From NCBI GenBank assembly GCA_026417875.1, contig JAOACK010000011.1, positions 1-42,199 on the forward strand: a stretch of 42,199 nucleotides of DNA. Reading direction: 5' to 3'. Position 1 is the first letter of the stretch; each line of letters starts with the position of its first letter. Source of the DNA: Thermodesulfovibrionales bacterium (lineage in GTDB: Bacteria; Nitrospirota; Thermodesulfovibrionia; Thermodesulfovibrionales; CALJEL01). The position numbers were made by a program, and so were the translations under genes. Under the pieces are notes generated by a model that worked only from the letters and a program-made list of their open reading frames with translations, had not been told where the DNA came from and did not search any database. Positions 6,501 through 22,351 of this stretch are shown here, one piece after another.

Positions 6501-7079
6501 ATGGAAAGGGTTTTTAAAGAAAGACTTGATAAACTTCTTAATTTCTACTGGAAAAATCAACGGATGCCCTCTTATTCTGAGATTGCTTTACTTGCTGGCT
6601 TCAGGTCAAAGAATGGTGCTTATAAATTTATCCAGAAACTGGAGAATCTTGGTTTTATCAAAAAGGATTCAAAGGGCAGGCTCATACCCGGCGCACTGGC
6701 AAAACCTCTCAGGTTTTTAGGTACAGTGGAAGCTGGTTTTCCAAGTCCTGCTGAAGAAGAGTTGATAGACACCCTCTCTCTTGACAGATGGCTCATAGAA
6801 AATCCCTCATCTACCTTTATGCTCAGGGTTACGGGAGACTCCATGTCTGAGGCAGGCATACTTCCAGGGGATATGGTTATTGTTGACAGGTCTTTAACAC
6901 CTAAAAACGGAGACATAGTCATAGCAGAGGTCGATGGTCAGTGGACGATGAAATACTTTAAGAAAGAAAAAAATGAGATCATCCTCCTTCCAGCAAATCC
7001 AAAATATAAACCCCTCAAGCCTAAAAAGGAGCTCAAAATAGGTGGAGTTGTTATAGCGGTAGTGAGGAAATACAAATGA
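6501..7079 (+). CDS. LexA/UmuD-like autocleaving repressor
   Basis: This 192-residue protein joins a LexA-type winged-helix DNA-binding domain (about residues 1-65; YSEIALLAGFRSKNGAYK) to an S24 autoprotease domain. The expected cleavage site is A78-G79 in EAGFPSPAEE; the catalytic pair is S114 (TGDSMSEAG) and K151 (TMKYFKK). The C-terminal half resembles UmuD (GFPSPA, GDIVIAEVDG) more than LexA, which suggests a repressor whose cleaved form could also serve the polymerase. It overlaps the polymerase gene by ATGA and has a GAAC-N4-GTTC palindrome in its promoter, so it should repress itself until RecA-stimulated cleavage. It may or may not be the global LexA of this genome. Confidence 0.85.
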   Translation: MERVFKERLDKLLNFYWKNQRMPSYSEIALLAGFRSKNGAYKFIQKLENLGFIKKDSKGRLIPGALAKPLRFLGTVEAGFPSPAEEELIDTLSLDRWLIENPSSTFMLRVTGDSMSEAGILPGDMVIVDRSLTPKNGDIVIAEVDGQWTMKYFKKEKNEIILLPANPKYKPLKPKKELKIGGVVIAVVRKYK

Positions 7080-10292: not shown

Positions 10293-11746
10293 GAGAAAAT
10301 CCCGCCCATGATTTTTGTAACAGAGTCTATTTCATGTTCCTGAATGGTCCTTGCATCAAGAAAGAGCCTGTTATCCTTTATCCGTGCTATTAGAGGTGGA
10401 TCAGAGTTTCTCAATCTCTCCTCAAGGAGATTGCAGGATACTTTGAGGGGTTTTACACTGACTCCCCATGTCTTCAGTTCAACCTCAGGAAGGCTACCAC
10501 CACCTGCTCTCGAGTAATCCTCTTCAAGAAATAAAAGGGCATTAATATTCTTTAGAATATCTTCAGAAATGGACTCTGATTCTTCCGGTCTCTTTAATCT
10601 TTTGAATCCATCAATCCTCTGAAGTTTCTTTATCAATGCCTCTGCCCTTTTCCTGATACTTTCAGGCTTCTCAAGGAGCATCCTGAGTGTGGGAATATTC
10701 TCAATTGCCCTTTCCTCATCAAGGTATTCATAAAGAGTTGCCTCAAGGGCTGCAATGGTAAACTTATCAACCCTTACCACCCTTGCAAGGGGTGATTTCC
10801 TTATCCTTTCAATTAATTCCCTTTTCCCCAGTATTACACCTGCCTGAGGTCCTCCAAGAAGCTTATCACCACTGAATGTAACTATATCCACACCTGTTTT
10901 TAATATCTCCTGAACAGAGGGTTCTTCAGGTATGCCGTATTTTCTGAGGTCTATAAGACAGCCGCTTCCAAGATCAAATACAACAGGTATCCCCCTTGAC
11001 CTGCCAAGCTCTAAAAGCTCTGAAGCAGAGACCTCCTGAACAAATCCTGATATCTTAAAATTTGACCTGTGAACCTTCATTATGAGGGCTGTGTTTTCAT
11101 TTATTGCCCTTTCATAATCGTATAGATGGGTCTTATTTGTTGTACCAACCTCTCTTAATACTGCACCACTCATTCTCATAACATCTGGCATCCTGAAGGA
11201 ACCACCTATTTCTACAAGCTCTCCCCTTGAGACTATAACCTCCCTGCCTGATGCAAGGCTATTGAGGGTTATAAATACTGCTGCAGCATTATTATTAACA
11301 ACAAAGACATCCTCTGCTCCTGTTACCTCTTTGAGAAGTCTTACCAGATGAACATATCTCTTGCCCCTTTTTCCTTCTATAAGGTCATATTCAAGATTTG
11401 AATAGGACCTGGCAATCTGGATAAGATTCATCGTGGCCTTTGCTGAAAGAACAGACCTGCCCAGATTTGTATGTATCACAACACCTGTTGCATTTATAAG
11501 TGGCCTGAGACTTAACTCCGAGGCCCTTTCAAGCCCCCTTTCTATAAGGAATATGAGGTAACTCCTCAGGGATTCTCTTTCCTTGAAAAGACCCTTTCTG
11601 ATCTCTTCTCTCAGAAAGGACAGGCTTTCTCTTATAACATTTACAACTATCGTCCGAGGATATTCTGAAAGCCATCTTACAGCCTCCTCTGATTTAAGAA
11701 GGCTATCAACCGAAGGAATATCTCTAAGAAGGACTTCAGCGTTCAT
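10289..11746 (-). CDS. selA: L-seryl-tRNA(Sec) selenium transferase SelA
   Basis: SelA is the PLP-dependent enzyme that converts Ser-tRNA(Sec) to Sec-tRNA(Sec) with selenophosphate. The 485-residue product has the family's N-terminal region, INATGVVIHTNLGRS (about 85-97), NNNAAAV (151-157), and the PLP lysine K295 in TFSGDKLLGGPQAG, the same residue number as in E. coli. Length is typical. It has no Shine-Dalgarno, and a TAAAAT box (11761-11756) ends 9 nt before the ATG. selB lies 7.7 kb upstream on the same strand, separated by a plus-strand efflux module. selD and selC are not in this window. Confidence 0.97.
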   Translation of the reverse strand: MNAEVLLRDIPSVDSLLKSEEAVRWLSEYPRTIVVNVIRESLSFLREEIRKGLFKERESLRSYLIFLIERGLERASELSLRPLINATGVVIHTNLGRSVLSAKATMNLIQIARSYSNLEYDLIEGKRGKRYVHLVRLLKEVTGAEDVFVVNNNAAAVFITLNSLASGREVIVSRGELVEIGGSFRMPDVMRMSGAVLREVGTTNKTHLYDYERAINENTALIMKVHRSNFKISGFVQEVSASELLELGRSRGIPVVFDLGSGCLIDLRKYGIPEEPSVQEILKTGVDIVTFSGDKLLGGPQAGVILGKRELIERIRKSPLARVVRVDKFTIAALEATLYEYLDEERAIENIPTLRMLLEKPESIRKRAEALIKKLQRIDGFKRLKRPEESESISEDILKNINALLFLEEDYSRAGGGSLPEVELKTWGVSVKPLKVSCNLLEERLRNSDPPLIARIKDNRLFLDARTIQEHEIDSVTKIMGGIFS

Positions 11747-12393
11747 AAGTTTTTAATTTTAACATTTTTTTATTGATGATTTTTTATGCCATATTCTTAC
11801 TTGGCATTTATTATAAAAATACAGGCCTTGCCTGTTTACAACTCAGTAGGGGATTATAAAAGGCAAAGACCTATGAACTCGCTTTTTTTAAAATTTACAG
11901 ATAAATCCTAAAAACCATTTTCGGTGGACCGGTACTATCGGATTAGATAAACCTACATGATTCACACAATACAAACAATCTATCCTGCACTGGATAATTA
12001 TACACTTAATATAAGATGAATATTCCTCCTATGCTGAAGATTTAATGCAATAATAAAATTCTTACTTAAGCTGGTTAAATCCTTATAGTGATATAGAATA
12101 TGAATAACTGTCTAATTTATTTAAGAATCAATACACACTATAAAAATTGATTTGGCCATATCCATGCCAGCACAATATTCAATGGAAGATTTACAGGTGT
12201 GAGACAAATATAAGTCTCCATTTTAATAGAAAACTTTCAAGGCTCTTCCAGACATTTTAAAGCTCTGCCAGTATACCTTGTTTTTCACAAGCTACCTGCA
12301 TACTTATCTACCATGGCTATGTAATTAAGCAATCTTAGTCTAATTTTTAATTTTTTCTTGACTTTTAATATAAACATATGTAAATATATTTAT
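11747..12393. other. AT-rich intergenic region with decayed coding traces
   Basis: About 650 nt with no convincing gene. Close to selA is its -10-like box. A short hairpin ACAGGC-CTT-GCCTGT lies at 11821-11835. On the minus strand, around 12120-12190, a short frame reads EYCAGMDMAKSIFIVCID before a stop; this resembles the N-terminal GIDvsK motif of IS110-type transposases and could be a remnant, but the match is short. The arsR promoter is at the right end. The region marks one edge of the plus-strand efflux module lying between selB and selA. Confidence 0.35.
12358..12392 (+). promoter_or_regulatory. arsR promoter with palindrome over the -10 box
   Basis: TTGACT (12358-12363), a 17-nt spacer and TAAATA (12381-12386) form the promoter. 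The -10 box is the left half of a perfect palindrome TAAATATATTTA (12381-12392) inside a longer imperfect A/T-rich dyad. This is a likely operator for the ArsR-type repressor, which would autoregulate the operon. The ATG at 12394 is 7 nt past the -10, with no Shine-Dalgarno, so a leaderless mRNA is predicted. Confidence 0.65.
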
Positions 12394-12783
12394 ATGAAGC
12401 AGATCATAAAACTCATGAAACTCTTTTCAGACCCTCTTAGATTGAGGATATTTATGCTCTTAACTGAAAGAGAACTGTGTGTCTGTCAGTTGATGGCAAT
12501 AGTTGGGGCATCACAGCCCCTTGTCTCAAGAAACCTGGGATTATTGAGAGAAGCTGGACTTTTATCCACCAGGAGGGATGGAAAATTACTCTTTTACAGG
12601 ATTTCAGAAGATCTTTCACAGGAGCAGAAAAAATTTATTAATAACTTAAAAGAGCTCCTTAAAAATGATCCACAGATAAGGACTGACAGACTGAGGATTG
12701 TAGAATGTGAAGAATTCCAGAAAAGGACAGGCAGATGTGATATGAATATATTAAAAAGATTCATGCAGGAGGTGCACGGATGA
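12394..12783 (+). CDS. ArsR/SmtB-family metal(loid)-responsive repressor
   Basis: This 129-residue winged-helix protein has the ArsR core (MKLFSDPLRLRIFMLLTERELCVCQL, then a recognition helix in SQPLVSRNLGLLREAGLL). C29 and C31 in ELCVCQL are the typical thiol pair that binds arsenite or a soft metal. More cysteines follow near the C-terminus (VECEEF and GRCDM). Soft-metal sensing is therefore likely; which ion is inferred, not seen. The ATG at 12394 is chosen over the open frame from 12358, because that stretch contains the promoter. The gene overlaps the TolC-like gene by ATGA and heads the efflux operon. Confidence 0.88.
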   Translation: MKQIIKLMKLFSDPLRLRIFMLLTERELCVCQLMAIVGASQPLVSRNLGLLREAGLLSTRRDGKLLFYRISEDLSQEQKKFINNLKELLKNDPQIRTDRLRIVECEEFQKRTGRCDMNILKRFMQEVHG

Positions 12784-14144
12784 TGAGAGTTGGGACTTAT
12801 AAGAATAAATTTATTATTTATGTATTTTTTACAATAACTGTTATATTTTCTCCAGAATACCTCAATGCTGAGAAAGCCTACACCCTGAAAGAGGCTATTG
12901 AAATTGCTATTAAGGAAAATCACCATTTAAGGGCAGCAGGTATGAATCTGAGGGCTACTGAAGAGGATATATCAATTGCAAGAAGTTATCTCCTTCCACA
13001 GCTAAGGATAGAAGAGCGCTTCATGAGAACAGATAATCCAGCCTATGTCTTCTCAACAAAGATAAATCAGGAAAGATTCACCCCTAAGGATCTCATGGGT
13101 GCACCGGGGACATTCAATAATCCAGAGCCAATAAGCAATTTTCAGACTGTTCTGAGTGTGGAGATGCCCATTTATGTTAGAAGGGCATGGATAGGTCTTG
13201 AGATATCAAAAAGAGAGTACCAGACAGCGAGCAAAGAATTTGAGAGAAAAAAGGAGGAGATAGTCTTTGAGGTCATCAGAGCCTATCTCGGAGTTCGGAC
13301 AGCAAAGGAATATGTGAATGTGGCTAAACTGGGTCTTGAAAATGCAGAAGAACATCTCAGGATTGCGAAGAAAAGGGCAGAGGCAGGGCTGGGGCTTCAG
13401 TCAGATGTTTTAAGGGCAGAGGTTGGAGTTGCCGATGCAAAAGCAAGACTCATTTCAGCAGAAAAGAATCTCATGATTGCAAAACGGGCACTGGGCTTAC
13501 TCATGGGTCTTGATGAATCTGTCGATATTACAGATGGGATAGATTTTGAGCATGAACTCCTTGAAGAGTCCTACTATGTTGAGAGGGCGCTTCAGGGCAA
13601 AGAGATAAAGGCAATGGAATTAAGGTATGAAAATGCAAAGAGAATGGTGAGTCTGGAAAGGTCTGATTACATTCCCCAGATTGGTATAGGTGCGCAGTAT
13701 GAGCTCGATGACCCAAATACACCCTTTGGTTCAGAAGGAAAGAGCTGGCAGGTAATGGCATTTCTGAGGTGGGACATATTCAGTGGTTGGAGGACAAGGG
13801 CAGCTACAAAAAAGGCTGAGTATAAATTAAAGGAGGCCGGTGAATACCTTGATGGATTAAAGAAATCAGTGAAGTTCAGGGTTCACGAAACATACAGCTC
13901 TGTACTCGAGGCAAGGGCAAATCTGGAACTTGCCCGTTCTGCACTTGAGGCTGCTCAGGAAGGCAGGAGACTTATAAAAATAAGATATGAAAACAACCTT
14001 GCAAGGATAGTTGACCTTCTTGACAGCCAGACAGCCCTTGATAATGCCAGAGCCCAGCTGGTTCATAAAGAAGGTTCCTATTATGAGGCAATAGCAAGAC
14101 TTTTATTTGTTAGTAACATGATGGATGAGTTTATAAAGAACTAA
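12780..14144 (+). CDS. TolC-like outer-membrane efflux protein
   Basis: The 454-residue protein is an outer-membrane factor that forms the exit duct of a tripartite pump. It has an N-terminal signal (IIYVFFTITVIFSPEYLNA), then the OEP repeat structure: YTLKEAIEIAIKENH near 35, a long helical region with AEEHLRIAKKRAEAGLGLQSDVLRAE, and a second repeat ending RYENNLARIVDLLDSQTALDNARA. Two OEP domains of normal length are present. ATGA overlap with arsR places it in the regulated operon, 10 nt before the membrane fusion protein gene. Confidence 0.9.
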   Translation: MMRVGTYKNKFIIYVFFTITVIFSPEYLNAEKAYTLKEAIEIAIKENHHLRAAGMNLRATEEDISIARSYLLPQLRIEERFMRTDNPAYVFSTKINQERFTPKDLMGAPGTFNNPEPISNFQTVLSVEMPIYVRRAWIGLEISKREYQTASKEFERKKEEIVFEVIRAYLGVRTAKEYVNVAKLGLENAEEHLRIAKKRAEAGLGLQSDVLRAEVGVADAKARLISAEKNLMIAKRALGLLMGLDESVDITDGIDFEHELLEESYYVERALQGKEIKAMELRYENAKRMVSLERSDYIPQIGIGAQYELDDPNTPFGSEGKSWQVMAFLRWDIFSGWRTRAATKKAEYKLKEAGEYLDGLKKSVKFRVHETYSSVLEARANLELARSALEAAQEGRRLIKIRYENNLARIVDLLDSQTALDNARAQLVHKEGSYYEAIARLLFVSNMMDEFIKN

Positions 14145-14154
14145 GGAGGCAGAT

Positions 14155-15267
14155 ATGAAGAAGATATTAACTATACTTCTAACCTTAACCTCGGCACTTA
14201 TCCTCATATCCTGTACCAAAAAGGATGAAGGAAAGCATTACAGACCTTTAGAGATAACAGGCATAGAGGTTAAAGAGGTAAAACCTCAGGAAATTGATGA
14301 AATCTATGATGTTTCAGGTACAGTGAGACCAAGGACCTCAACAACTATATCATCAAGAATAATGGGTGAGGTAACTGGCGTATATGCAATTGAGGGAGAA
14401 AGAGTAAGGCAGGGACAGTTGCTCCTCACTATAGATGACAGGGACTACAGTGAAAGGCTTGCTCAGGCAGAAGAGGCCTACCAGGAGGCACTAAAGGCCC
14501 TTGAAAGCGCAAGGCAGAACAAAAGACTTGCTGATATCACCTACGAAAGATATAAAAAACTCTACGATGAAAAGGCACTGACCCAGCAGGAGCTTGACCA
14601 GATTGAGACCCAGAAAGAGATCGCAACTCTTGAACTCCAGAGAATTGAGGCAATGGTGAGAAGGGCAAAGGCAGGTCTTGAAGAGGCAAGACTCATTTAT
14701 GGATATACAAAGGTTGTATCACCAATAAATGGTATAGTGACAGAGAAAAAAGTAGAACTTGGCAATATGGTAATGCCTGGCACACCTCTCTTCACTCTTG
14801 AGGACAGTGAAAATTACAGGTTAGAGGTATATCTTGATGAAAGATTCACAGGGAAGGTAAAAAAGGGAATGAAGGTTCCTGTTTATATAGAAGCGAGAGC
14901 AGAAGCCCTGGAAGGCAGGGTATCAGAGATCATCCCAGCTGTTGACCCATTAACAAGAAGCTTCCTTGTAAAGATAGACCTGAGCAGAAAGGACCTTAAA
15001 TCAGGTCTTTATGGAAGGGCAAGATTTTTAACAGGCAAAAAAACAGGCATACTGGTTCCAGAAAATGCGATTGTTAAGAGGGGTCAGCTCACAGGTGTAT
15101 ATGTTGTTGATAGCAGTGGAGTGATTTCCTACAGAATTGTCAGAACAGGTCCATCCTATCCTGAAAAGAGGATGGTAGAGGTTCTTTCAGGTCTTAATCC
15201 GGGTGAAAGAATTATAACTGTTGGTGTAGACAGGGCCATAGAAGGCGGAATCTATAAAAAAAGCTAA
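14155..15267 (+). CDS. RND efflux periplasmic adaptor (membrane fusion lipoprotein)
   Basis: This 370-residue adaptor links the RND pump to the TolC-like duct. It has a lipoprotein signal with Cys at residue 20 (LILISCTKK), a split lipoyl domain (ISSRIMGEVTGVYAIEGERVRQGQ and later YGYTKVVSPINGIVTEKKV), a coiled-coil hairpin in between (about residues 100-175), and a beta-barrel region (EVYLDERFTGKVKKGM). AAGGAGG precedes the ATG. It sits between tolC-like and RND pump genes with short gaps. Substrate is not predictable from this subunit. Confidence 0.92.
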   Translation: MKKILTILLTLTSALILISCTKKDEGKHYRPLEITGIEVKEVKPQEIDEIYDVSGTVRPRTSTTISSRIMGEVTGVYAIEGERVRQGQLLLTIDDRDYSERLAQAEEAYQEALKALESARQNKRLADITYERYKKLYDEKALTQQELDQIETQKEIATLELQRIEAMVRRAKAGLEEARLIYGYTKVVSPINGIVTEKKVELGNMVMPGTPLFTLEDSENYRLEVYLDERFTGKVKKGMKVPVYIEARAEALEGRVSEIIPAVDPLTRSFLVKIDLSRKDLKSGLYGRARFLTGKKTGILVPENAIVKRGQLTGVYVVDSSGVISYRIVRTGPSYPEKRMVEVLSGLNPGERIITVGVDRAIEGGIYKKS

Positions 15268-15285: not shown

Positions 15286-16914
15286 ATGGAGAGCATAGGA
15301 ATATCAGGCTCGATAGCAAAGGCCTTTATAAAATCCAGACTCACACCTATTCTGGTTATAGCATCACTCCTTGCCGGAGTCTTTGCATTAATTGTAACTC
15401 CCAGGGAGGAGGAACCCCAGATAGTTGTTCCTATGATAGATATATTTGTGACATACCCCGGAGCCTCAGCAAAAGAGGTGGAGGATAGGGTTACAAGACC
15501 CATGGAGAAGTTCCTCTATGAAATAGAGGGTGTGGAGTATGTTTATTCAATTGCCAGACCGGGTATGAATCTCACAATAGTAAGGTTCTATGTAGGTCAC
15601 GATATGGAAGAGGCAATAGTAAAGGTATATAACAAGCTCATGTCCCATTATGATCTCATACCTCCTGGTGTCTCCCAGCCACTTGTGAAACCAAAGTCCA
15701 TTGATGATGTACCCATTCTTGCCTATACCCTATGGTCAGACAGATACAGCTCCTATGAATTGAGGCGCATTGCCCAGGAACTCTGCACAGAGATAAAAAA
15801 GGATCAGGATGTATCTGAAACCCACGTAATAGGAGGACAGAAGAGACAGATAAGGGTAATACTCAGTCCTTCAAGACTGAGGGCATACAATCTCTCGGCA
15901 GTGCAGATAATGCAGATGATCCAGACATCCAATGTGGTGATCCCATCAGGTTCACTGCAGGCAGAAAACAGGGAAATACTTGTAGAGACAGGTGGCTTCC
16001 TCAGAACTGCCGATGAAATAGGAAATGTGGTAGTTGGCACATTCAATGGACGACCTGTTTACCTCAGAAATGTGGCAGAAATCATTGATGGACCCGCTGA
16101 GCCTGAGACTTATGTCTTTACAGGATTCGGTCCTGGTATCAATAAAAAGGCTGAGGGACTGGCATTAAGACCCGAAGATTCTCACAAACTTTATGAATCA
16201 GTAACCATTGCTATAGCAAAAAAGAAAGGAACAAATGCAACGATTATTGCAAAGAGAATAGAGAAGAAGATCGAAGATCTCAGAGGAAAGCTCATACCAC
16301 TTGATGTGAAGATTCTCGAAACAAGGAATTACGGAGAGACAGCAAAGGAAAAATCTGATGAACTCCTTAAACACATACTCATAGCCACCTTCTCTGTAGT
16401 CCTTTTAATAGCTATCACCCTGGGCTGGCGGGAAGCAGTAGTTGTTGCAGTTGCTGTTCCTGTCACCCTTGCCCTGACACTGCTCATCAATTATCTTTAC
16501 GGATACACCCTGAACAGGGTCACACTCTTTGCGCTTATATTTTCCATAGGAATCCTTGTTGATGATGCCATAGTGGTTGTTGAGAACATCCACAGGCATT
16601 TTAAAATCCACAGGATAAGTCCACTCACAGCAGTCCTTGCGGTTGATGAGGTTGGTAACCCAACCATACTCGCTACATTCACTGTTATAGCAGCCCTTTT
16701 ACCCATGGCCTTTGTATCAGGTCTTATGGGTCCGTATATGAGACCAATACCTGTTGGTGCATCAGCAGCCATGCTCTTTTCACTGCTTGTTGCCTTTATC
16801 GTGAGCCCATGGATGAGCTACATTGTTCTGAAAAATGTGAGGACTGAGACAGACATGAAAAAGAGGGAGAAAAACTTCTGGGCATATACAGAAGGATCCT
16901 CGGCCCTCTTATAG
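15286..16914 (+). CDS. RND efflux transporter, N-terminal half (ends at a frameshift)
   Basis: The frame encodes the first 530 or so residues of an AcrB-type inner-membrane pump: the first transmembrane helix ([17 protein letters not shown]), the porter domain ([29 protein letters not shown]), and helices 2-6 with [21 protein letters not shown], whose Asp pair is part of the proton relay. The last 15 codons (after MKKREK) are out of family and end at TAG. The true continuation is in the -1 frame. GGAGG stands before the ATG. Treated with the next entry, the pump would be about 1085 residues, close to the usual 1000-1050. Confidence 0.85.
16858..16875 (+). other. Frameshift site in the RND pump gene
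   Basis: Reading switches from frame 1 to the -1 frame within a stretch holding two A5 runs (16858-16862 and 16870-16874). Adding a single A in the second run gives an uninterrupted protein through [16 protein letters not shown]. This is either a real one-base deletion, a sequencing or assembly error in a homopolymer, or a -1 recoding site. The runs are shorter than the A6G of classical bacterial slippery sites. Confidence 0.8.
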
Positions 16915-16949
16915 ATAACTCAAAGAAGAGATACCTTGCCCTTGGAGGC

Positions 16950-18542
16950 GTGCTTGCACTCCTTGCTGCAGCACTTATGTTACTGCCTCTTAAAAAGGTT
17001 ACTGTAAAAATGCTTCCTTTTGATAACAAGAGCGAACTCCAGGTCATAATTGACATGCCGGAGGGAACAACCCTTGAGGAGACCACAAGGGTTGCGATGG
17101 AGCTTGGAAATTATATAAAAACTGTACCAGAGGTTACAGACTATCAGATATATGCCGGCACCTCTGCACCCTTTAATTTCAATGGCCTTGTAAGACATTA
17201 TTATCTTAGGACAGGACCGAATGTAGCTGACATACAGGTAAATTTTGTCTCAAAAGCAGAAAGGTCAAGACAGAGCCATGATATTGCAAAAGCCATAAGA
17301 GAACCACTAAATGAGATAGCAAAAAAATACGGTGCAAGGATAAAGATTGCAGAGATTCCACCCGGACCACCAGTTCTGAGCACACTGGTCACAGAGGTCT
17401 ACGGTCCTGACCATAAAAGACAGATAGAGATAGCAAAAGAGATCATGAATATCTATGAAAAGACAGAAGGGGTTGTTGATACAGACTGGTATGTGGAGGA
17501 TGACCAGGAAAAGATTGTCTTTGATGTAGATAAAGAAAAGGCTGCCTACCATGGTGTGAGCACCGATACCGTTGCCAAGAGTCTCAGGATTGCCCTTGGT
17601 GGTATGCCTGCAGGTCTTGCCCATGTAGTGGATGAAAAAGAACCCGTGGAGATATTCCTGAGGCTTCCTCTTGAAGAAAGAGCAAGGATAGAGGCCCTCA
17701 GGGCAATGACTGTCCCTACACTGAAGGGAAACATACCCCTAAGTGAACTGGTCAAGATCAAAAGGACAGCTGAGGATAAAGCCATATACCACAAGAACCT
17801 TCAAAGGGTTGTCTATGTAACAGGTGATGTGGCAGGAAAGGAAGAGAGCCCAGTTTATGCAATATTGAAGATGAAAAAGGCCATAGCAGAGCTTAAGATT
17901 CCTGAAGGTTACACAATAAAGCAATATTATACGAAACAGCCCTATCTAGAAGATAAGTATTCAATAAAATGGGATGGTGAATGGCATATAACCTATGAGG
18001 TCTTCAGAGACCTGGGCATTGCCTTTGGAGCAGTGCTAATTCTTATATACATACTGGTTGTTGCCTGGTTCAAGCACTTTGTTACACCACTCATAATAAT
18101 GGCACCTATTCCACTCACACTTGTTGGAATAATGCCAGGTCACTGGCTTTTCGGTGCCTTCTTTACAGCAACATCAATGATAGGCTTCATTGCCCTTGCA
18201 GGCATAATAGTGCGAAATTCCATACTCCTTGTAGACTTCATCCAGATGGAATGGCGTGAATGTGGAAGTCTTAAAGATGCCCTTATAAAGGCAGGCGCTG
18301 TCAGGTTCAGACCCATTGCACTGACAGCAGCAGCTGTTGTGGTGGGATCCTTTGTGATGATCTTCGATCCCATATTCCAGGGCCTTGCGATAGCCATGAT
18401 GTTCGGTGCAGTGGCCTCAACTGCACTGACCCTTATTGCGGTTCCTCTTCTTTACTATGAATACTTCAAGACAAGGATATGCCCTATAAAGGCAGAAGAA
18501 CTTGAGGCAACTGAACCAAGAGATGAAATGACAGAAATCTAA
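16950..18542 (+). CDS. RND efflux transporter, C-terminal half (out of frame with N-terminal half)
   Basis: This frame carries the second half of the pump: helix 7 ([16 protein letters not shown]), the second porter repeat ([21 protein letters not shown]), and helices 8-12 with [17 protein letters not shown] and the helix 10-like [15 protein letters not shown]. The family sequence is already readable in this frame from about 16872, upstream of the GTG at 16950, and no properly spaced Shine-Dalgarno exists, so this is not a separate gene start. Both halves are otherwise intact, with no extra stops, which suggests a recent or artefactual lesion. It ends 15 nt before the DUF2892 gene. Confidence 0.85.
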
Positions 18543-18557
18543 AAAGGAGGTATTGAG

Positions 18558-18785
18558 ATGTATATTGCAAAGACAGATTCCTGGTACCTTGAAAGGATAA
18601 TATGGCTCATAGCAGGGATATTTATCCTGCTGAGTGTAATTCTAACAGTTATTCACAGTCCTTACTGGCTTATACTTACAGCCCTTGTAGGTATAAACCT
18701 TCTTGTTTTTGCATTTACAGGTTTTTGCCTGATGGCGAACCTGCTCTATGCCCTCGGTGCAAAACCGAGACTTCAGAAAGAATAA
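18558..18785 (+). CDS. DUF2892 (YgaP-like) small membrane protein
   Basis: The 75-residue protein has two membrane helices (about residues 11-30 and 34-60) with the family pattern RIIWLIAGIFILLSVIL and LTALVGINLLVFAFTGFCLMANLL. It matches the DUF2892 inner-membrane domain, which is also found fused to rhodanese in YgaP. The function of the free form is unknown. The conserved GFCxM segment holds a single cysteine. AAAAGGAGG precedes the ATG. It is the fifth gene of the arsR-RND operon and lies 11 nt before the zinc-ribbon gene. Confidence 0.8.
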   Translation: MYIAKTDSWYLERIIWLIAGIFILLSVILTVIHSPYWLILTALVGINLLVFAFTGFCLMANLLYALGAKPRLQKE

Positions 18786-18796
18786 GGAGGCTGCAT

Positions 18797-18946
18797 ATGA
18801 ATGATACAGTCTATCTATGTCTTGATTGCGGAAAGGTCCACTTCACAAAAGTAGAGAGCTGCTCTCTCTGTAGAGGAAAGAATATTACTGCCCTTTACCT
18901 TACTGGCATATATGGTGGCGGCGGCTGAAATCCCTGGGGATGCTGA
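18797..18946 (+). CDS. Tiny zinc-ribbon protein, candidate selenoprotein (UGA at codon 44)
   Basis: The frame opens at an ATG with a strong AAGGAGG 7 nt upstream and reads 43 codons: MNDTVYLCLDCGKV, then CSLCRG (two CxxC knuckles), then LYLTGIYGGGG, and reaches a TGA at 18926-18928. If that TGA is read as selenocysteine, five more codons (N-P-W-G-C) follow before the next TGA at 18944-18946, giving 49 residues with a Sec and a terminal Cys four residues apart. A hairpin with GGUCU loop stands exactly 18 nt after the first TGA, as in E. coli fdhF. The host has selA and selB. If the first TGA is a stop, the gene ends at 18928. The family is unrecognised. Confidence 0.6.
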
Positions 18947-18957
18947 GGTCTTCAGCA
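18926..18957 (+). promoter_or_regulatory. Candidate bacterial SECIS element
   Basis: The TGA at 18926-18928 is followed after 18 nt by the loop GGTCT (18947-18951) closed by a perfect 6-bp stem TGCTGA/TCAGCA (18941-18946 and 18952-18957). In the E. coli fdhF SECIS the same 18 nt separate UGA from the GGUC loop. An alternative pairing closes GGUC with A-U and bulges a U from the 3' side; in fdhF the bulged U is on the 5' side. Whether SelB binds here is inferred. Confidence 0.5.
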
Positions 18958-18963
18958 TAAAAG

Positions 18964-19006
18964 CTCAGGGTCTTATCCGACCCTGAGTCTATAAATTTTT
19001 GTTTTT
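18964..19006 (+). terminator. Intrinsic terminator of the arsR-RND operon
   Basis: A perfect 9-bp stem CTCAGGGTC/GACCCTGAG (18964-18972 and 18979-18987) with a 6-nt loop is followed by a T-rich tail (ATTTTTGTTTTT). Confidence 0.75.
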
Positions 19007-19048: not shown

Positions 19049-19483
19049 ATGCCTGTAACAGAGATTGAACTCTATGAGGTTCTGAAAGAAAAGGTTGGAG
19101 AGAAAGAGGCCAGAACTATCGTTGAATTTATTGATGCAAAGATCGAAAAAAGGATTGAAGAAAAAAGAGATTTCCTGGCTACAAAGGATGACATCAAAAA
19201 GCTAGAAGGAAGTATAATAGCCACAAAGGATGATATCAAAAAGCTAGAAATAGATATAAAAAGATTGGAAGGTGACATAAAAAAATTAGAGGGTGATATA
19301 AGAAAAGTTGATGAAGATGTAATAAAGATAAAAGAAGATTTAAAAGAGCTTAGAAAGGATGTCCAGAATCTTGAGGACAGACTTGAAGGAACAAAATCAA
19401 AAATTATTAAATGGATGTTTCTTTTCTGGATCGGTCAATTCGCATCATTGATAGCTGTTTTACAGATTTTCTTTAAAAGATAA
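19049..19483 (+). CDS. Coiled-coil protein with C-terminal membrane anchor (DUF1640-like)
   Basis: The 144-residue product begins MPVTEIELYEVLKEKVGEKEARTI, continues into a long charged coiled coil (about residues 35-115) built of repeats such as ATKDDIKKLEG, DIKRLEG and DIKKLEG, and ends with one hydrophobic helix (WMFLFWIGQFASLIAVLQIFF). This pattern is that of DUF1640/CCDC90-like proteins, whose bacterial role is unknown. The ATG at 19049 has AGGAGG upstream and is preferred to the frame start at 19013. It lies alone after the operon terminator and converges on selB. The near-identical repeats at about 19180-19290 may allow length variation. Confidence 0.7.
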   Translation: MPVTEIELYEVLKEKVGEKEARTIVEFIDAKIEKRIEEKRDFLATKDDIKKLEGSIIATKDDIKKLEIDIKRLEGDIKKLEGDIRKVDEDVIKIKEDLKELRKDVQNLEDRLEGTKSKIIKWMFLFWIGQFASLIAVLQIFFKR

Positions 19484-19494
19484 TTTCTAATAGA

Positions 19495-21369
19495 TCAAAT
19501 CTTGGGCATCTTCAATAATTTTCTTACATCACCCACACGCATGGTGATCTTTTTTGAATCAAGATATTCAAGAAGGGGTATAGCATATTTCCTTGTTGTC
19601 TGGAGCATATCTCTGAAATCTGACACTGTCAGTTCTTTCTTCTTAGAAAAGAACTCATTAAGTCTCCTGAAAAGTTCAAGATGGCTTTCCCGTGAAAGAT
19701 AGAAAGAGTCATTTATCCTCTCAAGCAGCCCTTCCTGTTGAAGAAGACGCAGTATATCATCAAGCTTTCTGGCATCAATATTAATTGTCTCAGCAAGCTC
19801 CTCCTTAAATGGTGGCTGGAATGCTCCTCCTTTTATCATATTAAGAATCCTTTCTTTGAGTGCTGGATCAACAGCAGCTGTCCTGAATTCTCTAAGCCTC
19901 AAATACTCACCCTCCCTTATTATCTCAGGAGTCCTTTCTATTATGTAATCAAAAATCTTCTGCTCCATGCCTGAACCTGTCCTGAGTTCTTCTTTCTGAA
20001 TACCCGGTTTAAGGGGATTTTTATTGTGAAATTCCCTGATGGTTTCTATAAATTTATTTTTTATATCCTCTATACTGGCTTTGTGGAAAAGCATACCATC
20101 TATCTCAACAACCTGTCCCTTTTCTTTTAGAGCCTTGAGGGCATTTTCAATATCTTTAAGCTCTCTGTTTATCCAGCCATAGAGTTCCTTTTTAGGAAAA
20201 CCTTTTGACCTCTTTACCTTCAGGGCTATCTTTTCTTCAAGCTCGGCGCTTTCAAAAATTGGTAATTCATCCTTTAATTCAGGGTATCTCTTTCTTGATG
20301 GATAGGGATCAAGAACCACTCCACCACCAATTGTATCAAGTGGTGATATTCTTCTTATGACAAATCTGTCCTCTGCTGAGGTGATTACGTCCCTGTCAAG
20401 TCTGAGCTGCGCATAGGCATTACTGCCTGGCTTAAGCTCATCCCTGTCAAAGAGAATAAGCCTTGCGATCGCCTCTGATGTCCATATATGAAGATGAACA
20501 AGACTCCTGTTTTTAATAGCCGGTGCATCTTTAAGAATTTCGATCCTTACATTAAGCAATCTCGTTGGCCTGAATGTATCTGGCCTTGCCACGATATCAC
20601 CTCTTTCGAGCTCTTCCTTTTCAACCCCCTGAAGATTGAGGGCAAGCCTCTGGCCTGCAAAACCTTCTGTAATGGATTTTCCATGACTCTGGATACCTCT
20701 TATTTTTGTCTTTAATCCTGAAGGAAGGATCTCTACCTGATCATCAACCCTCACTGATCCTGATATTGCTGTTCCTGTAACAACAGTACCGAAACCCTTA
20801 AGTGTAAAAACCCTGTCCACAGGTAATCTGAAGGCGCCTCCTGAGGGTTTCTGGGGAACCTTAAGAGCAATCTCCTTTATCTTTTCTTTAAGGAGTTCAA
20901 TATTCAAACCGGTTTTTGCTGAAACGGGTATGATATCAGCACCTTCAAGAAATGACCCTTTCAGAAATTCCCTTATCTCCTCCTGAACAAGCTCAAGCCA
21001 TTCTGGCTCAACAAGATCAGCCTTATTTAGGGCAACCAGACCAGACTTGATCTTAAGTAGATTGCATATAGCTAGATGCTCCCTGCTTTGTGGCATTATT
21101 CCCTCATCAGCAGCAATAACAAATAAAACCATGTCAATTCCTGCTGCACCGGCAAGCATGTTCCTGACAAGTCTCTCATGTCCCGGCACATCAACTATTC
21201 CAACAGTAAGACCATCTGGATAATTGAGATAGGCGAAACCAAGGTCAATTGTTATACCCCGCTCCTTTTCCTCCTTGAGCCTGTCAGGATCAATACCGGT
21301 AAGAGCCTTTACAAGACTGCTTTTCCCATGGTCAATATGACCTGCTGTGCCGAGAATTATGTGCGGCAT
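19495..21369 (-). CDS. selB: Selenocysteine-specific elongation factor SelB
   Basis: SelB delivers Sec-tRNA(Sec) to the ribosome at UGA codons marked by a SECIS hairpin. The 624-residue protein has the GTPase motifs [13 protein letters not shown] (7-19), the switch region with [22 protein letters not shown] (59-66) and NKADL (about 114-118), then EF-Tu-like beta-barrel domains, and C-terminal winged-helix repeats (about 440-624) that bind the SECIS. Length matches the family. AAGGAG precedes the ATG. The start overlaps the end of a UGA-containing small ORF. It lies on the same strand as selA but separated from it by the efflux module. Confidence 0.97.
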
Positions 21370-22186: not shown

Positions 22187-22351
22187 ATGCCTGTGTATGA
22201 ATTCAAGTGTGAAAAATGCAATGAAACCTTCTCACTTACCATGTCAATCAAGGAAAAAGAAAAGGCAGAGATTAGCTGTCCAAAATGCAAATCAAAAGAT
22301 GTAAAACCTGTATATTCTGGGTTCTTTGCTGTCACATCGAAGAAATCTTAG
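22187..22351 (+). CDS. FmdB-type small zinc-ribbon protein
   Basis: This 54-residue protein starts MPVYEFKCEKCNETFSL and has a second knuckle CPKC (31-34), the standard pattern of the FmdB/CxxC-CxxC regulatory zinc-ribbon family. The C-terminal part VYSGFFAVTSKKS is also usual for the family. AGGAGG lies 6 nt before the ATG. These proteins are widespread; their role is not settled. It stands alone, 34 nt after the tRNA, and may be transcribed from the tRNA promoter. Confidence 0.88.
   Translation: MPVYEFKCEKCNETFSLTMSIKEKEKAEISCPKCKSKDVKPVYSGFFAVTSKKS

Follow-up and report, generated by a model that had tools for sequence, protein, structure and literature searches.

A gene at the end of an ArsR-regulated operon for RND efflux in a Thermodesulfovibrionales bacterium almost certainly encodes a selenoprotein, a four-cysteine zinc ribbon of 49 residues that ends in GGGG-U-NPWGC. 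The predicted protein very probably represents a new bacterial family of very small selenoproteins, matched by no NCBIfam selenoprotein model and absent from the 2026 selenoprotein inventory (PMC13188914). The family, its conserved UGA and C-terminal tail, the hairpin, the decoding machinery and the gene order were established by sequence comparison, and from these we infer that Sec is incorporated at the UGA. The selenoprotein reading of this gene is held with very high confidence. We also regard as very probable the complete explanation, in which a family of tiny selenoproteins has a UGA decoded through a SECIS element and is encoded at the end of an RND operon under ArsR control. The region was analyzed within a stretch of 42,199 nucleotides (contig JAOACK010000011.1 of assembly GCA_026417875.1), which is called the window below. 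The relevant features are as follows.

10307–11728, minus strand: selA, selenocysteine synthase (TIGR00474, 597 bits)
12358–12783, plus strand: ArsR-family repressor with the metal-site motif ELCVCQ (PF01022; listed start TTG)
12780–14144, plus strand: TolC-type outer-membrane efflux protein (PF02321)
14155–15267, plus strand: membrane-fusion protein of the CusB/HlyD type (PF16576)
15286–18542, plus strand: RND efflux permease, frame broken (PF00873 on both halves, ORFs 15286–16914 and 16950–18542)
18558–18785, plus strand: small YgaP-like transmembrane protein (PF11127)
18785–18790, plus strand: Shine-Dalgarno sequence AGGAGG, read in the sequence, sharing one base with the stop codon of the YgaP-like gene
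18797–18946, plus strand: putative gene for a tiny selenoprotein, with 49 codons (the Sec codon among them) and then a stop; product MNDTVYLCLDCGKVHFTKVESCSLCRGKNITALYLTGIYGGGG-U-NPWGC
18926–18928, plus strand: in-frame UGA, read as Sec44
18929–18943, plus strand: conserved tail NPWGC after Sec
18944–18946, plus strand: true stop codon, TGA
18940–18958, plus strand: SECIS-like hairpin of 7 bp with the apical loop GGUCU at 18947–18951
18964–18999, plus strand: terminator-like inverted repeat CTCAGGGTC-TTATCC-GACCCTGAG with a T-rich run after it, read in the sequence
19495–21369, minus strand: selB, Sec-specific elongation factor (PF09107, PF25461, PF09106, GTP_EFTU)

The reading frame begins at the ATG at 18797 and runs for 43 codons to position 18925, where GGT GGC GGC GGC precedes the TGA. 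The initial annotation had described this zinc-ribbon frame, its strong Shine-Dalgarno sequence and the read-through to N-P-W-G-C and a second TGA, all of which were confirmed. It had also reported a hairpin with the loop GGUCU located 18 nt after the UGA. The loop and the spacing were reproduced; the arms ATGCTGA (18940–18946) and TCAGCAT (18952–18958), which enclose the loop GGTCT, form seven perfect base pairs rather than the six originally counted. A scan of the selenoprotein region against Rfam returned chance matches only, and comparison of the protein sequence with the PDB turned up zinc fingers and ribbons of a generic kind. An AlphaFold model computed from the single sequence was of poor quality (pLDDT 58.8, with residues 40–49 below 50) and was left unused. 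The inverted repeat at 18964–18999 is the probable end of the operon. Directly downstream of it is an ORF (19049–19483) for a coiled-coil protein with repeated KKLE segments, which is not obviously an operon member.

Relatives of the gene were collected with profile searches in which translation continued past every stop codon and the codon was reported. The gene was found first in seven genomes and then, within the order, in approximately 34 of 177 genomes; wider searches returned positives in more genomes and in other orders of the class. Sixty members from 12 families of the same class were inspected. The codon at the Sec position is TGA in all 60 and TAA or TAG in none, so homologues that all end at this position with TAA or TAG, the outcome against which the initial annotation had warned, were not what was found. 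A C-terminal Cys follows the UGA in 56 members, mostly within U-[NST]-P-x-[GS]-C, with SPRGC (22 members) and NPWGC (11 members) the leading tails and variants making up the remainder. The final Cys is missing from four members, whose tails are TPFV, SPR, AP and APVK. Beyond the tail, the true stop codon varies (29 TAA, 22 TGA and 9 TAG). For the 50 members with tails of five codons, the pairwise differences at codon positions 1, 2 and 3 number 1020, 999 and 2473, respectively, with Pro retained in 49 and Cys in all 50. Because the differences are concentrated at third positions and the Pro and Cys are retained, the tail is under selection as translated protein, and the five codons, whose lack of conservation the initial annotation had named as a refutation, are conserved as protein. 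Within the ribbon, C8, C11, C22 and C25, which constitute two CxxC pairs, are invariant in an alignment of 23 sequences (A2).

The initial annotation had looked for support to homologues with Cys at position 44. These are absent within the phylum, and the conservation of the UGA stands in their place. Among the matches listed in the profile searches of the class and the phylum, no stop-free relative was found to span the C-terminal motif, and a DNA pattern for a Cys version gave five chance-like matches in 396 genomes, no more than its reversed-pattern control. The family looks to be Sec-only within the phylum. A relative in genome G068, which matches positions 1–46 with an E value of 8e-11, is without the arm and has TAA as its stop codon. 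No relatives were found among plasmids and viral contigs. The sole match of a scan of genome contigs (L013; Pseudorhodobacter, GGGGCNPWG) was rejected as a chance match of nine residues.

Taken alone, the hairpin of the window is moderately unusual, since its score is equaled after 4% of 329 ordinary stop codons and its fold z-score is −0.83. Without homologues, the hairpin and the frame are only suggestive; we judge the case for a selenoprotein to be decisive once the homologues are taken in. The hairpin score was defined as the best stem with a loop centered 12–34 nt after the UGA, and the controls were 329 stop codons that close ORFs 200 codons or longer in the loci under study. The mean score of the family was determined to be 17.1, compared with 9.7 for the controls (Mann-Whitney p ~1e-25, a value that overstates independence since the members are related), and 90% of the members reach a stem score of at least 13 versus 16% of the controls. 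When the offset was fixed and the stem was not chosen, 77% of the stem cells were found to pair, relative to 67% (at most 71%) when the columns were shuffled 2000 times; sliding one side of the stem by 1–3 nt lowered the pairing to 26–48%. Apical loops of the GGUC, GUC and GUU types predominate. The true stop codon lies within the stem in many members, and changes in its letters are often matched on the facing side of the stem (TGA with ...TC and TAA with ...TT). Comparable hairpins are found in two accepted selenoproteins of the same genome, selD (AGGTCC-GTC-GGACCT) and the NF041197 protein (GCTGCAG-GTC-CTGCGGC).

The machinery needed to decode the UGA is complete in this genome. The genes for SelA and SelB, whose presence had been claimed at the outset, flank the ArsR-RND operon within the window. 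The tRNA-Sec gene selC (contig C39 of this genome, G000; 76 bits) and selD (contig C28) lie elsewhere in the genome, and the absence of these two, which had been named as grounds for doubt, was not observed. The selD gene itself carries an in-frame TGA. Its match is split into two frames near 6737–6739 (L166 and L169, C28:6039–6969), perhaps by a further sequencing error in this draft genome. Of the 60 genomes tested for it, selA is missing from seven outlying genomes of the phylum, four of which (G401, G334, G348 and G387) were read at their FmdB ends and have no Sec-type tail, in line with the selenoprotein reading. Among the genomes with the TGA form, G060, G090, G185 and G266 gave no selA match and G082 gave a selA fragment only, a point against that reading; all five are drafts.

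Two other readings of the UGA were weighed against this evidence. If the codon were an ordinary stop, the protein would have 43 residues and the hairpin would be a regulatory or terminator structure, a reading favored by a hairpin that is unexceptional by itself and by the terminator-like repeat closely downstream. An ordinary stop would hardly be TGA in every member, given that TGA terminates 144 of 329 ordinary long ORFs in these loci, nor would the codons past it evolve as protein up to a conserved Cys and then a stop codon that varies; we consider this reading highly improbable. The protein-like conservation beyond the UGA would also be accommodated if the codon were read as another amino acid, Trp for example, by suppression or a variant code. 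UGA as Trp is rejected because so many ordinary genes in these loci end in TGA, and the full Sec machinery together with the SECIS-like hairpin also argues against any such decoding, to which we assign an even smaller probability. The preferred reading is a selenoprotein of 49 residues, the size proposed at the outset, and the conserved UGA, conserved tail, hairpin and Sec machinery all point to it by comparison of sequences.

The initial annotation had further proposed that the protein is perhaps a partner of the efflux system. Conserved gene order supports this proposal, and for the biochemical role we can offer a functional guess. An RND gene was found just upstream and on the same strand in 20 of the 33 assessable loci, representing seven families, and a fusion protein and TolC accompany it in most of these 20. 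The YgaP-like cluster is upstream of the selenoprotein gene in 12 loci. RND genes are not nearby in the other 13 loci, several of which still have upstream one or more of ArsR, a YgaP-like protein and a Fer4_5 membrane protein. At four loci (L061, L065, L066 and L068), a Fer4_5/NapH-like membrane ferredoxin is directly upstream of the selenoprotein gene, and twice an ArsR precedes it. The ELCVCQ motif is present in all eight of the ArsR neighbors listed. This motif resembles the site for arsenite in the ArsR of E. coli and may point to a soft metal(loid). The ArsR of the window likely starts at an ATG further in (MKQIIK...). The RND homologue in the sister genome G001 is a single intact frame of 1084 amino acids, and the broken frame in the window is perhaps a sequencing error or a recent mutation.

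In the mechanism that we propose, a four-Cys, FmdB-like ribbon bears a Gly-rich C-terminal arm ending in Sec-x-Pro-x-(Gly/Ser)-Cys. SelA, SelB, SelC and SelD would decode the UGA as Sec by means of the hairpin, whose start overlaps the gene's final codons and stop codon. The gene stands at the end of the operon for the ArsR-regulated tripartite RND efflux system. The Sec/Cys pair of the flexible arm may then capture or reduce a soft, thiol-reactive metal(loid) in the cytoplasm, with arsenite, antimonite, mercury or an organometal as candidates, and the captured metal(loid) would be handed to the ArsR-controlled RND/YgaP-like export system. The family is probably tied to metal or metalloid detoxification. 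That the Sec/Cys arm serves the RND pump as a carrier of a soft metal(loid) is our best functional guess, for which we put the chances at about even.

In a rival account the selenoprotein is real but has a general redox or regulatory role within the FmdB superfamily, with the RND operon as only one of several hosts. The Sec/Cys pair would then serve in sensing or in thiol redox chemistry by forming a selenenylsulfide reversibly, rather than in the hand-off of a metal. The 13 loci with no RND gene nearby are consistent with such a role, as are the loci that adjoin a CcdA-like gene or a Fer4_5 membrane protein and the FmdB paralogs with a similar C-terminal UGA found elsewhere in these genomes. 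Against it, the ArsR-RND operon is by far the commonest context, extending over seven families, and several of the loci that lack RND keep ArsR, a YgaP-like protein or both just upstream. We regard this general role as a serious contender that falls somewhat short of an even chance, and we retain the metal(loid) carrier as the working model.

The ribbon appears to belong near the FmdB family. A member from genome G012 scored 34.4 bits against PF09723, exactly at the cut-off of 34.4, and one from G069 scored 33.4 against TIGR02605, above the cut-off of 31.3; most members, including the protein of the window, fall below the cut-offs of the FmdB models. The new family and FmdB share a small N-terminal zinc ribbon with two CxxC pairs. 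Neither a C-terminal Sec-Cys arm nor an RND operon is a defining trait of FmdB proteins. Twenty-two FmdB paralogs were also inspected, namely L136 of the same genome (C46:12138 onward) and 21 others (L084, L133–L135, L137–L140, L142–L147 and L151–L157). All have a TGA, mostly after a Gly-rich GG(G/T/S), with continuations such as G-x-S-S-C (GISSC, GPSSC), GPAC and GT before the true stop. The hairpin after the UGA has a mean score of 18.0 in these paralogs. Six other inspected ribbon proteins are without this C-terminal UGA pattern, and a search of an FmdB paralog against plasmids gave one weak partial match that leaves the C-terminus uncovered. A second branch with C-terminal Sec is likely to exist among the ordinary FmdB paralogs. 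With these paralogs, a common zinc-ribbon family would gain a clear candidate functional residue. It is nearly as likely as not that the FmdB-like ribbons of this phylum constitute a large unannotated selenoprotein superfamily, in which the RND-operon branch (UxPxGC) would depend on selenium to shuttle a metal(loid) to a pump under ArsR control, the ordinary FmdB branch ends in U-GxSSC or shorter forms, and the Gly-rich arm with its C-terminal Sec is the working part. The window contains a different FmdB ribbon at 22187–22351 (PF09723, 46.9 bits), which ends in ...TSKKS and has no Sec tail.

The initial annotation knew of no described family that fits, and the same was concluded here: no selenoprotein model of NCBIfam release 20 matches the family, a zinc ribbon with a C-terminal UxxxxC arm is absent from the 2026 inventory of 119 families (PMC13188914), and keyword searches of the literature found no such architecture either. 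The only FmdB selenoprotein on record that we found is the Global Ocean Sampling metagenome case, an FmdB-family protein with predicted Sec described as two sequences with CxxU or UxxU and 807 Cys homologues (PMC2398784, PMC13188914). Compared with that motif description, the new family has UxxxxC in a C-terminal arm and no Cys form was seen. Protein DG (NF049953; deep-Sep, PMC12013277) is also a zinc-ribbon selenoprotein, with the Sec motif GUxG. Against its model of 172 positions, one member scored 12.8 bits, relative to a cut-off of 130, and the other family proteins gave no match. The metal-linked Sec proteins in PMC13188914 (mercuric transport proteins, the Cu/Zn efflux transporter NF033936 and the Sao proteins) likewise connect Sec with the transport or detoxification of metal(loid)s; the inventory describes none of them as a zinc ribbon or as a component of an RND operon. 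The dual-CXXC selenoprotein NF041197 (OS_HP3 and hypothetical protein DW in PMC13188914) is similarly tiny and has two CxxC motifs, but its Sec lies between these motifs rather than in a C-terminal arm, and its model matched none of 12 family proteins tested.

The new family would add selenoproteins of about 49–68 residues, which gene finders truncate or miss because the Sec is five residues from the end, and would link selenium use in poorly explored bacteria with an RND efflux operon under ArsR control. Estimates of the selenoproteomes in these bacteria are probably too low. NF041197 is encoded in the present genome by a separate gene (L085, 1630–1788 of contig C34) and was found in 89 of the 101 genomes searched, in nearly every case with TGA, which marks the order as rich in selenoproteins.
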